DNA of 64,000 bases, taken from contig NZ_CP083553.1 in the NCBI RefSeq assembly GCF_025144465.1, positions 2,602,001 to 2,666,000 on the forward strand, in the 5' to 3' direction. Shown here piece by piece: positions 19,795-28,849 of this stretch. The notes below the pieces were generated by a model. That model had not been told where the DNA came from, did not search any database, and worked only from the letters and a program-made list of their open reading frames with translations. Origin of the DNA: Leisingera sp. S132 (GTDB lineage: Bacteria; Pseudomonadota; Alphaproteobacteria; Rhodobacterales; Rhodobacteraceae). Made by a program: the position numbers and the translations under genes. Every line of letters starts with the position of its first letter. Position 1 is the first letter of the stretch.

Positions 19795-20361
19795 TCAAAT
19801 GCCGATTTGCTCGGCAATGCTCAGAGCATCTTCCAGCTCAACGCCAAGGTAGCGCACGGTGCTGTCCACTTTGATGTGACCAAGGAGCAGCTGAACTGCG
19901 CGAAGATTGCCGGTCTTTCGGTAAACTTCGGCCGCTTTCGTCCTGCGAAGCGAATGGGTGCCGTACCCGCTCGGTTCTAAACCAATCGCCGTCACCCAGT
20001 CGCGGACGAGCCGACTGTACTGGCGCGTCGAGATGTGCGGGCGGTCATGGAACCGGCTCGGGAACATGAACTGGCACGCAAACATCTCGGGGGACTTGAC
20101 CCAAGCCAGGACAGTTTCGCGCGTGTTTTCAGTCAGTTCGAATTGAACGGACCGCTTGGACTTGCTCTGAATCACAGAAACTCGCTCCCGCACGCGGTCA
20201 TCCTTGACCAGATCAGCAACCGCCAGTTTCACCAGATCGCATCCTCCCAGTTTGCTGTCGATAGCCACATTGAAAAGCGCAAGATCGCGCAGGTTGACCG
20301 ACAGTTCGAGCCGCGCGTGGATCGCCCAGACCTGTTTCGGCAACAGTGGCCGTTGACGTAC
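19795..20361 (-). CDS. Tyrosine-type recombinase/integrase, start codon uncertain
   Basis: Catalytic part of a short tyrosine recombinase. Visible residues are R in AIDSKLGGCDLVKLAVADL-type box (weak), HxxR in YGTHSLRRTKAAEVY, H in LLLGHIKVDSTVRYLG and the terminal nucleophile Tyr in VRYLGV. Reading upstream, RTLRGVRQRPLLPKQVW continues the family N-terminus, but an in-frame stop lies shortly before and no ATG is present. A TTG at 20343 is the only simple start, so the gene may be 5'-damaged. It lies beside IS3 debris and about 1.2 kb from tRNA-Thr, suggesting it once moved an island. Confidence 0.7.
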   Translation of the reverse strand, partial: VRQRPLLPKQVWAIHARLELSVNLRDLALFNVAIDSKLGGCDLVKLAVADLVKDDRVRERVSVIQSKSKRSVQFELTENTRETVLAWVKSPEMFACQFMFPSRFHDRPHISTRQYSRLVRDWVTAIGLEPSGYGTHSLRRTKAAEVYRKTGNLRAVQLLLGHIKVDSTVRYLGVELEDALSIAEQIGI

Positions 20362-20382
20362 TCCCCTTAGAGTCCGCGTTTT

Positions 20383-20731
20383 TCAGTTAGCTCTGTTCAG
20401 GGTTTGGTCCTCTCTTGACCATTGGCGATACTCCCGCAGGGTGAGCCCGTCGAGGCTCGAATGCGGGCTGTGGTGATTGTAGTCGTCGCGCCAGGCGTGG
20501 ATCAGGTGACGGGCATGGCGCAGGCTCGCAAACAAGTGCTCGTTCATGCACTCATCCCGAAGGCGGCCATTGAAGCTCTCTACGAAGCCGTTCTGCATCG
20601 GTTTGCCGGGCGCGATGTAGTGCCATTCGGCCTGCCGGTCCTGCTGCCATTTCAGGATCGCGTTGCTGGTCAGTTCGGTGCCCCTCGCCATTGCCTCTCG
20701 GACCAATGGCGTTCCACTCGCTAGATCAGAC
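20383..20731 (-). mobile_element. IS3-family fragment A (transposase OrfB C-terminus)
   Basis: The frame from about 20706 to 20383 encodes the end of an IS3-type integrase-core transposase: [36 protein letters not shown] (with the catalytic Glu) and ending near [16 protein letters not shown]. The front of the element, with the first two catalytic aspartates, is missing. It is cut at about 20731 where fragment B begins, so it cannot be active. Confidence 0.8.
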
Positions 20732-21545: not shown

Positions 21546-21621
21546 TGGTGCCCCCACACGGACTCGAACCGCGGACCTACTGATTACAAATCAGTTGCTC
21601 TACCAGCTGAGCTATAGGGGC
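21546..21621 (-). tRNA. tRNA-Thr (anticodon TGT)
   Basis: On the minus strand the sequence begins GCCCCTATAGCTCAGCTGG, has the anticodon stem-loop ACTGA-TTTGTAA-TCAGT with TGT as anticodon, T-loop GGTTCGAGTCC, and ends GGGGGCA followed by encoded CCA (21546-21548). All four arms pair. It lies beside an integrase and IS fragments, a classic integration neighbourhood. Confidence 0.96.
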
Positions 21622-22505: not shown

Positions 22506-23558
22506 TCACTTAGCAGGGCCGCGGGCAGCAACGGGGCTGGCAGACGCCTCCCCCCCCGAGGCGGTCCCGCCAGTCTTCTCCATCCCCTCGCGGTAGAAGC
22601 AATGCTGCGCCCGCCCGGCGCGCTTGGCAGCATAAAGCGCCAGGTCAGCCTGGTTCAGCAACTCCTGCGCATCCGGCGCCTTTTGCCAAGTGGACAGCGT
22701 CGTGCCTGCGCTGGCGGAAATCCGGCAGCTTTGGCCGCCGAACGGCACCGGTTCCTCCAGCCGCTGAATCAGCCGCTTGGCAATCGCGGCAAGCCTGCTG
22801 GTATCCAGAACCCCCTCAAGGATCATCACAAATTCATCACCGCCGACACGGGCCACCGTGTCTGACTGGCGGGTGCATTCCACCATGATCCGGGCTGCCT
22901 GCTGCAGCACCGCATCCCCAGCAGCATGGCCCAGCGTGTCATTGACCTGTTTGAAGAAATCCAGATCCAGATGCATCAGCGCGAACTCGCGGCCGCTGCT
23001 GATCAGCCGTGCCAGGATATGGTCCATTGCCCGGCGGTTTTTGAGCCCGGTCAAAGTGTCGGTGAAGGCCTGCTCTTCGGCGGCGATCTTGGCCCCTTGC
23101 AGCCGCAGGTTCAGCTGGCGCGACGCTTCCATCGCGGCAGATTTCGCCTCAACCAGATACAGCATCTCGATGGTCAGGTCCGTAGGCGAGAAATCGGCGC
23201 TTGTCAGGTCGTAGTCGCGCACGGCCTCCAGCACCGAAATGCCGAAGGACAGGTTCAGGAAAGCGCCCTGGCCGTCCGGCAGCGGTGTGCATACCCCTTT
23301 GAGCCCGGTCTGCGGCAAATCCCGGAACTGCAAATGCAGCTTGCTGCCCGCGGAGGCCAGCAGATCTTCCACTGACCGGACCGACCGCGGCCTGGACAGG
23401 TCAAACACCCGGAAAAACCGCCGCCCTTCCCAGGTCAGCTGCGGGCGCAGCTTCTTCAGAGTCGGGCCAGCCGAAACGATCCGCCCCTTGTGATCAACGA
23501 TCACAAACATCGGGCAAATGACATCTGCCATTCCAGTCAGCTGCGGGAGTGTCATCAT
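22506..23558 (-). CDS. HNOBA-domain diguanylate cyclase (GGDEF)
   Basis: 350-aa cytoplasmic protein. The N-terminal domain (about 1-140: MFVIVDHKGRIVSAGPTLKK, FFRVFDLSRPR) resembles the haem-NO-binding-associated (HNOBA) domain of soluble guanylate cyclases. A short helix (about 140-170) leads to a GGDEF domain (about 175-325) with an intact active site RVGGDEFV and an inhibitory-site RQSD five residues ahead. It should synthesise c-di-GMP. The start overlaps the H-NOX-like gene stop (ATGA), so the two proteins are made together and probably form a complex. Confidence 0.9.
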   Translation of the reverse strand: MMTLPQLTGMADVICPMFVIVDHKGRIVSAGPTLKKLRPQLTWEGRRFFRVFDLSRPRSVRSVEDLLASAGSKLHLQFRDLPQTGLKGVCTPLPDGQGAFLNLSFGISVLEAVRDYDLTSADFSPTDLTIEMLYLVEAKSAAMEASRQLNLRLQGAKIAAEEQAFTDTLTGLKNRRAMDHILARLISSGREFALMHLDLDFFKQVNDTLGHAAGDAVLQQAARIMVECTRQSDTVARVGGDEFVMILEGVLDTSRLAAIAKRLIQRLEEPVPFGGQSCRISASAGTTLSTWQKAPDAQELLNQADLALYAAKRAGRAQHCFYREGMEKTGGTASGGEASASPVAARGPAK

Positions 23559-24142
23559 AACGAATGAGCCCCCAAGTCAAATTCCCGCCCGGCAGCGAAT
23601 TTGGTTTCAACCAGGGTGATGGAAATCACTTCGGCACCACCGTGGGTGCCGCTGTGATCCAGAAAGACCAGGTCGCCGTAATCATCCGCCATCGCCCTCA
23701 GAACCCCCATCAGGACATGTGCATATCCTGGCAGCCCCGGCTGGCAGATCAACTCAAACTGATCCTGCGCTTGTTCCAGCAGCTCCAGCCCTGGCAAATG
23801 CAGATCGGACACTGCCAGCCTGGCGCGGTCCGGCAGGTCATCCAGGGAATGCAGGAATTCCACATAGGTCACGCCGCCAAAGCGCAACAGCCGCCGCAGT
23901 GCCTCCACCTGCGGGTTCGACACCAGGAAGGTGCCCATATCTTCCAGCATTTCCGGCAGCGGCCGGGCAAGCACTGTCTCCATCGCGGTCAGCATGCTGC
24001 CGGATTGTTCCTCGGTGTAATACAGCATTGCTTCGAACTCGGTGAAACCGAGTCCGGCCTGCTCCATGACCTCTTCCCAGCGGTCCGCCCCGTAGGTACT
24101 CGTCACAAAAGCCTGAATCGCCCTGTTGATCAGACCGTGCAT
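23555..24142 (-). CDS. H-NOX (haem NO-binding) domain-like protein lacking the haem ligand
   Basis: 195-aa protein with the H-NOX start MHGLINRAIQAFV, the helical part EEVMEQAG through LEDMGTFLV, and the typical FLHSLDDLPDRARLAV segment. In canonical H-NOX the residue in the position of Pro104 is the proximal histidine that binds haem iron (LDDLHxR). The YxSxR haem-propionate motif is also absent (aligned residues Glu130, Ile132, Gln134). Haem binding in the usual way is therefore unlikely. It is coupled to the downstream HNOBA-GGDEF gene. It may sense another ligand or use another residue such as His98, which is inference. Confidence 0.85.
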   Translation of the reverse strand: MHGLINRAIQAFVTSTYGADRWEEVMEQAGLGFTEFEAMLYYTEEQSGSMLTAMETVLARPLPEMLEDMGTFLVSNPQVEALRRLLRFGGVTYVEFLHSLDDLPDRARLAVSDLHLPGLELLEQAQDQFELICQPGLPGYAHVLMGVLRAMADDYGDLVFLDHSGTHGGAEVISITLVETKFAAGREFDLGAHSL

Positions 24143-24452
24143 GCAATGGCCCCTCTTTGCCTATGCCACAGTCTTGACGCGCGCTGGTTAAGAAAGGCAC
24201 AACAAAGCAGGTCAGTTGAGCTTCCGGCGCCTGAAAATCCTGCTTTTTCTTCCCCTAGCACGAAACCTGCACTCTCAATCTCACCAGCAATTTTGCGCAA
24301 AGCCCCGCCATTATAGCCTAACCGGAGCGCCCGCCAACCTCTTGCGCGCGGACGGCCTGGCTGCACTACTGTACCTGCCCGGCGGCAGTGGCAAGCCCGC
24401 GGCACCCTCCGCCGCCCTCCCCCGGCGGATTTTCACCACCCGGCCGGAGAAT
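24143..24452. promoter_or_regulatory. Promoter region of the H-NOX-like operon
   Basis: 310 bp between the H-NOX-like start and the MttB terminator. No coding sequence or RNA is seen. The promoter of the two-gene operon must lie here. Confidence 0.4.
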
Positions 24453-24502: not shown

Positions 24503-26062
24503 TCAGAAATCGGTGGGCGCCCCGCCCTCAGCCTTGCGCCGGGCCACGAAATCCGCCAGCTCGTCCCGGATCGCCGCATCCATTGGCGGCTCCTCGAAGG
24601 AACCGATGATCTCTTTAAACATCTTGTGAGCGCGCTCCGCGGTCCAGGTTGCGCCCGCGGCCTCCCAGGCCTCAAAGTTGCGCCAATCGCTCAGAAACGG
24701 CTGGTAGAACGCCGTGGTGTAGCGGTCCTGGGTGTGCTGGATTCCAAAGAAATGGCCATCGTTGCCAACCTCCCGGATCGCATCCAGGGCGATTTCGTCC
24801 GGACCGGTGGCATTGACCGCCGGGTCCATGTAGCGCTGGATCATTTGCAGCACTTCGCAGTCCATGATGAACTTCTCAGGGCTGGCGATCAGGCCGCCCT
24901 CCAGCCAGCCGGCCGCGTGATAGATCATGTTGGCGCCTGACTGCACCGCGGACCAAAGCGAGTTGGAGGTCTCCCACATCGCCTGCCCGTCCGGAACATT
25001 GGCCGCACAGACGCCGGAGGCCCGCATCGGCAGGCCATAAAAGCGCGCCATCTGGCCGGTCATCTGGGTTGAGCGCATGTATTCCGGGGTGCCAAAGGCA
25101 GGCGCACCGGATTTCATGTCCACATTGGAGGTGAATGTGCCGATCGCCACCGGGCAGCCCGGCACCACGTACTGGAACAGCGCGATCGCGCACAGCGATT
25201 CCGCTATGGATTGCGCGACCGCTCCCGCCATCGTCACCGGCGCCATTGCGCCTGCCAGCGTGAAGGGCGTCACCACCACTCCCTGGCCCCGGCGGCACAG
25301 CCGCAGTGAACCATCGATCATCGGCTCATCATGCTTCAGCGGCGAGGTGGAATTGATGTTGGTGTACATCTTCGGGCTGGCATCAAACTCCTCATGGCTG
25401 TGGCCGCCCGCGATACGGACCATCTCCATCACGTCCTCGACCCGCTCCTTGCCCAGGCTGTAGGCATGCATCGCCTTGTCTGTCAGCGTCAGCTTGTCAT
25501 AGAGCACATCCAGATGGCGCACCGAGGCGTGGATGTCCACCGGCTCCACCGGGTAGCCGCCGGCAAAGTGGATGCAGTTAAAATACTGGGTCAGTTTCAG
25601 CAGGTTGCGGCATTGCTCGCGGGTGCCCGCTGTCTTCTTGTTCTGCTCCAGATCCCAGTAGTTGGGCGGCGAGGACACGTTTCCGAACAGCATCACATCG
25701 CCGCCGACAGTGATCTTGCGCTCCGGGTTGCGCGGGGTGAGGGTCCATTCCCGCGGCGCTTTCGCCACCATTTCCATGACAAATTCCCGGTCCATCCGGA
25801 CCAGGTCGCCCTCAACCTTCACCCCCGCCTGCTTGAAGATTCCAAGCGCTTCCTCGTTGAAAAACTGGATGCCGATCTCTTCGAGGATTCGCATGGCGCC
25901 ATCGTGGATGGCCTGCACCCCTTCCTCGCTCAGCGGCTCAATGGGGCGGTCGATGTTGCGGGGCGGGTTCCAGGGCATCTGCTCCAGAACTGCACTGCCG
26001 CGCCGGGCTGCCGCGCCCGCCCTGCCTCCGCCGCGCCGTTTGTGTGTGCCTGTCTCTGCCAT
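24503..26062 (-). CDS. Trimethylamine methyltransferase (MttB) family protein, non-pyrrolysine
   Basis: 519-aa member of the MttB superfamily, TIM-barrel enzymes that move a methyl group from a quaternary or tertiary amine to a corrinoid protein. No in-frame amber codon interrupts it, so it belongs to the non-pyrrolysine branch that includes glycine-betaine methyltransferase MtgB. Conserved regions include GGYPVEPVDIHASVRHLD, VTPFTLAGAMAPVTMAGA and PAFGTPEYM. A low-complexity basic N-terminus (about 1-25) precedes the fold. No corrinoid protein is adjacent. A strong terminator follows, so it is a single-gene unit. Substrate unknown; betaines or carnitine-derived amines are plausible. Confidence 0.85.
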   Translation of the reverse strand: MAETGTHKRRGGGRAGAAARRGSAVLEQMPWNPPRNIDRPIEPLSEEGVQAIHDGAMRILEEIGIQFFNEEALGIFKQAGVKVEGDLVRMDREFVMEMVAKAPREWTLTPRNPERKITVGGDVMLFGNVSSPPNYWDLEQNKKTAGTREQCRNLLKLTQYFNCIHFAGGYPVEPVDIHASVRHLDVLYDKLTLTDKAMHAYSLGKERVEDVMEMVRIAGGHSHEEFDASPKMYTNINSTSPLKHDEPMIDGSLRLCRRGQGVVVTPFTLAGAMAPVTMAGAVAQSIAESLCAIALFQYVVPGCPVAIGTFTSNVDMKSGAPAFGTPEYMRSTQMTGQMARFYGLPMRASGVCAANVPDGQAMWETSNSLWSAVQSGANMIYHAAGWLEGGLIASPEKFIMDCEVLQMIQRYMDPAVNATGPDEIALDAIREVGNDGHFFGIQHTQDRYTTAFYQPFLSDWRNFEAWEAAGATWTAERAHKMFKEIIGSFEEPPMDAAIRDELADFVARRKAEGGAPTDF

Positions 26063-27348: not shown

Positions 27349-27454
27349 ACTCCTGCCGCATTGCAGCCAATTTAGTAAAAATCTGAAAGGTTTTTTTAAC
27401 CAGTCTCAGCAAAATTGGAAATCATAGGATTTGCAAGGGGCGAAAGGATACCGC

Positions 27455-28849
27455 GTGCAAGGCACTATCCTGGTCATCGACGGCGTCTCCACCAACCGCA
27501 TCATGCTGAAGGTGCAGCTGGCGGCTGCCTACTACGATGCCGTGCAGGCCGGTTGCGTGGCAGAGGTGCTGCAGGCCGCCCGCACCTGCCGCCCTGACCT
27601 TGTGCTCACAGCGATGTCGCTGCCCGATGGCACCGCCGCAGATGTCAAACGCACGCTGGCGGCAGATGAAGCGCTGGCCGATCTGCCGGTGATTGCGGTT
27701 TCCGACTGGGAAGGCCAGCAGGCGCGGCTGCAGGCGCTGGCCGCTGGCATTGACGATGTGCTGCAGAAGCCGGTGGACGACGTGATCCTGCAGGCCCGCA
27801 TCCGCAGCCTGCTGCGCGCACGCAGCGCCAGCGAGGAGCTGAACCTGCAGCGCGACGCTTCGCAGGGCTTCATCCTGCCGCTGTGCGACCGCGCCGGCGC
27901 CGAGAGCCTGCGCAATGCCGCCGTGGCCCTGGTGGCCGAGGATCCGCGCACCGCCATGGCCTGGCGAGACCGTCTCTCGCCCGCCCTGCCCTATGCGCTT
28001 CGCACCCATGCCATCAGCGACATTCAGGGCCTGATGCAGGCGCCTGTGGCGGATGCCATCATCATTGAGCTGAACGAGGCATCGGCCGGCCCCGGCCTGC
28101 GCCTTCTGGCCGACCTGCGCGCCCGCGCGGCCACCCGCAAATCGGTGGTGATTGCTGTGCCCAACCCCGCCGATCCGCATATCGCGGCAGAGGCGCTGGA
28201 CCGCGGCGCCCACGACGTTCTGCAGAGCGGGTTCGATGTTGAGGAGCTTGCCCTGCGCCTGAACACGCAGCTGCAGCACAAAGCCCGCAAAGACCGGCTC
28301 CGCGACAGTGTCCGCAATGGCCTGCGCGCTGCAAATCTGGACCCGATGACCGGCCTTTACAACCGTCGATATGCCAAACCCTTCCTGGACCGGGTGGCGC
28401 ATTCAGCTTCTGAGACCGGCGAGAAATTCGCTGTCATGCTGGCCGATCTCGACCACTTCAAGCGGATCAATGATGTCTATGGCCACCCGGCGGGCGATGC
28501 CGTGCTGATCGAGGCCGCCCGCCGCATGCAGGCGGTGCTGGGGCCCGCAGACCTGCTGGCCCGCGTCGGCGGCGAGGAATTCATGGCAGTGCTGCCCGGC
28601 GCCACCGAGGCAAAGGCCGGCCTGGCGGCCATTGCCCTGTGCAATGCGATCAACAGCACCCCGTTCCAGCTACCGGGCGCCGCCGGTCCGGTCAGGGTCA
28701 CGATCAGTGTCGGCGCGGTGATGGGCGGCGCAGGCCATGGCGGCAGCACTGCGGCACTGGTCGAAAAGGCGGACCAGGCGCTTTATGACGCCAAGAACGC
28801 GGGCCGCAACCAGGTGACCCTGACGCCGGAGCGCACAGAGGCCGCCTGA
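27455..28849 (+). CDS. pleD: PleD-like receiver-GGDEF diguanylate cyclase with degenerate receiver
   Basis: 464-aa protein organised as receiver (1-120), second receiver-like adaptor (about 150-270) and GGDEF (about 290-455). The GTG at 27455 gives the family start VQGTILVIDGVSTNR, preceded by a GAAAGGA-type site. The residue aligned with phosphorylated Asp53 is Ala53 (VLTAMSLPDG), and the acidic pair is D9-G10 instead of DD, so classical phosphorylation is excluded; the conserved lysine (LQKPVDD) remains. The cyclase motif is RVGGEEF. The inhibitory RxxD is GPAD, so product inhibition may be lost. A terminator follows. Confidence 0.88.
   Translation: MQGTILVIDGVSTNRIMLKVQLAAAYYDAVQAGCVAEVLQAARTCRPDLVLTAMSLPDGTAADVKRTLAADEALADLPVIAVSDWEGQQARLQALAAGIDDVLQKPVDDVILQARIRSLLRARSASEELNLQRDASQGFILPLCDRAGAESLRNAAVALVAEDPRTAMAWRDRLSPALPYALRTHAISDIQGLMQAPVADAIIIELNEASAGPGLRLLADLRARAATRKSVVIAVPNPADPHIAAEALDRGAHDVLQSGFDVEELALRLNTQLQHKARKDRLRDSVRNGLRAANLDPMTGLYNRRYAKPFLDRVAHSASETGEKFAVMLADLDHFKRINDVYGHPAGDAVLIEAARRMQAVLGPADLLARVGGEEFMAVLPGATEAKAGLAAIALCNAINSTPFQLPGAAGPVRVTISVGAVMGGAGHGGSTAALVEKADQALYDAKNAGRNQVTLTPERTEAA

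Follow-up and report, generated by a model that had tools for sequence, protein, structure and literature searches.

The H-NOX (HNOB) gene at positions 23555–24142 of the reverse strand of the window, by which we mean the whole 64,000-nucleotide stretch of Leisingera sp. S132 DNA analyzed here, encodes a 195-residue protein of the Group 5 type, in which the proximal haem-ligating histidine is replaced by proline and the YxSxR motif is missing. The protein is best explained as an ordinary Group 5 member, that is, as a protein partner which tunes the adjacent diguanylate cyclase without classical His-haem NO sensing, a reading to which we assign a probability of roughly 70%. The finding is real and ordinary for the Rhodobacteraceae, and because the protein agrees with Group 5 in every respect tested, it is already described at the family level.

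In the article by Lee-Lopez and Yukl (2022, PMC8738867), Group 5 is the sequence-similarity cluster of the P. denitrificans H-NOX, characterized by having a proximal histidine in fewer than 10% of its members and mostly proline instead, and the question is raised of how such His-less proteins could sense anything. The window protein resembles this group in its proline and in the adjacent GGDEF gene, with no difference found in the features compared. The P. denitrificans H-NOX, encoded in the Pden_3719/3720 pair, is a relative (E = 2e-29) and carries proline at the Pro104 column. Gene neighbors depicted in a figure of the same article (MTTB, HAD, heavy-metal resistance, and GGDEF) also adjoin the gene here, but the legend assigns them to no group. 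Group 5 as published has no conserved cysteine, whereas Cys133 is found in 58% of the family members surveyed here.

Gene product and predicted fold

The open reading frame begins with ATG, and its product matches the HNOB profile (PF07700) with an E-value of 8.4e-21 and 75 bits against a cut-off of 25.5. Structure prediction, which the earlier note had proposed as a check, yielded a model of the whole H-NOX fold with a pLDDT of 89.5. The best structural matches are the Nostoc H-NOX and the H-NOX domain of sGC beta (Z ~20–22), the former with a TM-score of 0.79–0.80 and Z of 20.9. Compared to human sGC, the model reaches a Z of 21.9 with the NO-activated form and 20.5 and 19.9 with inactive forms, a gap too small for the likeness to the activated form to be used as evidence. 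Pro104 lies within the helix spanning residues 93–110, which by alignment is the same helix that carries the ligand histidine of canonical members. The nearest Leisingera species and strains have orthologues that are 95–99% identical at the protein level. An 89% identical copy (L191) occurs in an entry named Nocardioides marinus (strain DP1N28-1), which is probably a mislabeled Leisingera-like assembly.

Loss of the haem-holding residues

Three alignments agree with the earlier note that the proximal histidine has been replaced by Pro104 (codon at 23831–23833, reverse strand). The LDDLPDR segment of the window protein pairs without gaps with LDNLHAR of the solved Nostoc H-NOX in phmmer, Nostoc His105 aligns to Pro104 in a MAFFT alignment of 171 rows, and pairwise BLOSUM62 alignments place the proximal histidine on Pro104 in all five of the nearest canonical H-NOX proteins. 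The YxSxR motif is likewise absent, as had been claimed; the residues originally cited (Glu130, Ile132, and Gln134) are, however, three positions too early, since Nostoc Y134/S136/R138 align to C133/P135/L137 in the 171-row alignment, within codons 133–137 (C-Q-P-G-L; 23732–23746, reverse strand). Both features of haem-binding, gas-sensing H-NOX proteins are thus replaced. The window protein shares the fold, the N-terminal MxG, Gly70, and Pro117 with canonical NO sensors such as those of Nostoc and Shewanella and sGC beta, but differs from them in lacking the proximal histidine and YxSxR.

Two alternative explanations were rejected. His98 (codon at 23849–23851, reverse strand), which had been put forward as a candidate for the proximal position that would overturn the claim, is not a relocated ligand: six of the eight His-bearing relatives have both His98 and a normal His104, and His98 was matched to the proximal histidine in none of 12 canonical H-NOX proteins by pairwise BLOSUM62 alignment, where the remote ones are ambiguous. 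A frame or annotation error is contradicted by 38 of 39 further loci, mostly from Leisingera and close genera, that read through, with proline at position 104 in 37 and serine in one; in the last locus the hnox frame is interrupted by an early stop.

Distribution and phylogeny of the His-less family

Of 295 Rhodobacteraceae genomes, almost every one representing a separate genus, 214 have the family gene (~73% of the sampled genera). In the class as a whole, by contrast, HNOB proteins are seldom seen, with 14 of 289 genomes encoding one. The rows surveyed are loci whose position was listed or fetched, the weakest matches being under-sampled. Among the 154 readable members listed, residue 104 is proline in 120, histidine in eight, glutamine in seven, and alanine in four, followed by asparagine, arginine, and others; proline at this position is thus conserved as a subfamily trait, which the earlier note had asked to be checked. 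None of the 158 family rows listed retains YxSxR, whereas all 13 canonical rows have both the motif and the proximal histidine. One genome encodes a canonical His/YxSxR H-NOX (L171, G210:C1:786381-786857) alongside one of the Group 5 type, so that both could be compared within a single natural background.

Phylogenetically, the Group 5-type family forms one clade apart from canonical H-NOX proteins (SH-aLRT 99). In the window's own clade of 91 rows, residue 104 is proline in 84, alanine in three, threonine in two, and serine and asparagine in one each, with all His-bearing members falling outside. The prevalence of proline in 84 of 91 genera of this clade, and of histidine in none, argues that Pro104 is not a chance occurrence. 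At least eight changes between His and not-His are found on the tree, most inner branches of which are weakly supported; with that weakness in mind, the simplest reading is that YxSxR was lost first, and the histidine later and more than once.

Selection and conserved residues

Selection on the window gene is purifying, with dN/dS values of 0.02–0.08 against Leisingera or Phaeobacter orthologues when saturated pairs are left out. This bears on the idea of a decaying pseudogene or a recent loss of function in the window strain, for which the disappearance of residues essential in canonical H-NOX proteins might speak. The low dN/dS, together with invariant residues, an intact partner gene, and an intact reading frame across ~73% of sampled genera, contradicts this idea so strongly that we reject it as extremely improbable.

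Constraint on the protein has been relocated rather than lost. Gly70 and Pro117 are invariant in the family, as in canonical H-NOX proteins, and W22, E67, D68, RRLLR (83–87), R106, and MADDYG (151–156) are near-invariant positions specific to it. The strength of this constraint, and the appearance of the new near-invariant E67, RRLLR, and MADDYG in particular, could be taken to mean that another small molecule in the former haem pocket switches the cyclase, in that a bare scaffold might need less. Such a haem-free sensor seems rather doubtful to us, as no ligand is known and the new conserved residues could equally form a partner interface.

From the residues lost, haem is presumably absent from the window H-NOX, although it could be held in another way. 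Were it retained through a different ligand (e.g., Cys133, His2, or water), or through no protein ligand at all, NO could still be sensed. The H-NOX fold is preserved, His2 is present in 91% of members in addition to the Cys133 already mentioned, and a His-bearing relative is reported to sense NO without YxSxR. A strong nirK match in the genome further means that the strain may well meet endogenous NO. However, both canonical haem-holding elements are gone, no histidine or cysteine is invariant, and position 133 is valine, leucine, or isoleucine in many relatives. Retention of the histidine is also not significantly linked to the presence of nirS/nirK, which accompany five of eight His-bearing members versus 55 of 146 others (p = 0.26, with low power). 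Taken together, these observations make NO sensing through a retained haem unlikely.

The partner cyclase and its locus

The H-NOX stop codon and the start of the downstream gene (22506–23558, reverse strand) overlap by four nucleotides (ATGA, 23555–23558, reverse strand), an arrangement from which translational coupling of the two is likely. The downstream product, here called Dgc, consists of an HNOBA domain (residues 12–64) and a GGDEF domain (residues 164–317) with an intact GGDEF motif and RxxD I-site. The earlier description of the gene pair as intact and coupled therefore holds, with the cyclase catalytically intact by sequence. A GGDEF gene lies directly downstream of hnox in 151 of 157 family loci, with the four-nucleotide overlap in 79; the GGDEF motif is intact in 148 family loci and, of 152 partners, 149 retain an intact RxxD inhibitory site, such that the output enzyme looks intact. 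A model of the cyclase predicted without an alignment was unusable (pLDDT 37).

The genome encodes four GGDEF proteins, two of them inside the window. One PleD-like response regulator-GGDEF protein is encoded at 27431–28849, 3.3 kb from hnox. A gene of the trimethylamine methyltransferase (MTTB) family (24503–26062) precedes hnox, as an MTTB gene does in 53 of 151 family loci. At 19795–20706, pieces of a phage-type integrase (PF00589) lie next to pieces of an IS transposase core (rve_3), forming a decayed mobile-element patch ~0.8 kb from a tRNA-Thr gene (21546–21621).

A survey of upstream motifs identified TTAACC 49 nucleotides upstream of hnox (24186–24191, reverse strand). Roughly 54 of 156 family loci have TTAAC at −60 to −41, compared to 0–4 per 10 nucleotides elsewhere upstream, and the element could possibly be a CtrA half-site or part of a promoter. 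The former would agree with the published CtrA control of hnox in Dinoroseobacter shibae. The palindromic CtrA box TTAAN7TTAA was found upstream of hnox in none of 195 loci.

Comparison with characterized H-NOX systems

In P. denitrificans, whose H-NOX, like that of R. sphaeroides, is missing the axial histidine (Kumar and Spiro 2017, PMC5588039), loss of hnoX lowers biofilm formation, whereas loss of both cyclases raises it; the authors read this as inhibition of DgcA by H-NOX, while still putting the phenotype in terms of NO. This system resembles that of the window in the proline at the Pro104 column and in the overlap of hnoX with a GGDEF gene (PMC5588039), but the H-NOX is 36% identical to the window protein and is discussed as part of an NO pathway (PMC5588039). 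By contrast, the H-NOX of D. shibae is reported to bind NO and to inhibit Dgc1 (Bedrunka 2018, as cited in PMC8846402 and PMC7232146). It belongs to the same clade, forms a gene pair with a four-nucleotide overlap, and lacks YxSxR; however, the protein of strain DFL 12 (plasmid NC_009955.1) reads LDDLHDR, retaining the proximal histidine as well as the arginine of YxSxR, and a review lists it as a haem NO sensor. This is a point against our explanation: a same-clade H-NOX is reported to bind NO without YxSxR, albeit with its histidine kept.

A haem-independent mode of signaling has been described for the H-NOX proteins of V. cholerae and C. vibrioides, which use a Cys-zinc site (PMC12329717). 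Such redox-sensing sites comprise three cysteines plus histidine or glutamine, whereas the window protein has C133 as its only cysteine and hence cannot form one. A literature search found no measurement of haem content, NO response, or cyclase contact for any Pro-bearing member.

Discussion

The suggestion that this protein might be a non-haem sensor or a structural partner of the HNOBA-GGDEF cyclase fits all the data, the absence of haem being what we infer. In our preferred explanation, a protein partner tuning the cyclase, the haem-holding residues have decayed, YxSxR in the whole clade and the histidine in ~95% of members, while the fold and the family-specific residues were kept. H-NOX would then bind and tune, probably inhibit, the diguanylate cyclase whose gene overlaps the end of its own, and thereby set c-di-GMP levels and hence biofilm formation or motility. 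Direct contact between the two proteins is presumed, as is inhibition as the sign of the effect in Leisingera.

In canonical H-NOX proteins, activation is believed to come from breakage of the Fe-His bond (PMC12329717). An H-NOX without this bond might consequently be activated at rest and inhibit its cyclase, which would be in keeping with the biofilm phenotypes of P. denitrificans. It is conceivable, though we put it at somewhat below even odds, that the lineage gave up haem altogether and controls the cyclase in one of two ways, as an inhibitor locked in an NO-activated-like form or by means of another pocket ligand, with the D. shibae type as the surviving earlier state.

What is new here is that the evidence for NO in D. 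shibae and the His-less majority concern different members of the clade. Since the NO-binding D. shibae protein keeps its histidine, and the P. denitrificans protein behind the biofilm phenotype has proline, NO sensing is not transferable from the former to the majority. The annotation of this gene pair as "haem NO-binding" in most of the sampled Rhodobacteraceae genera is thus probably misleading.
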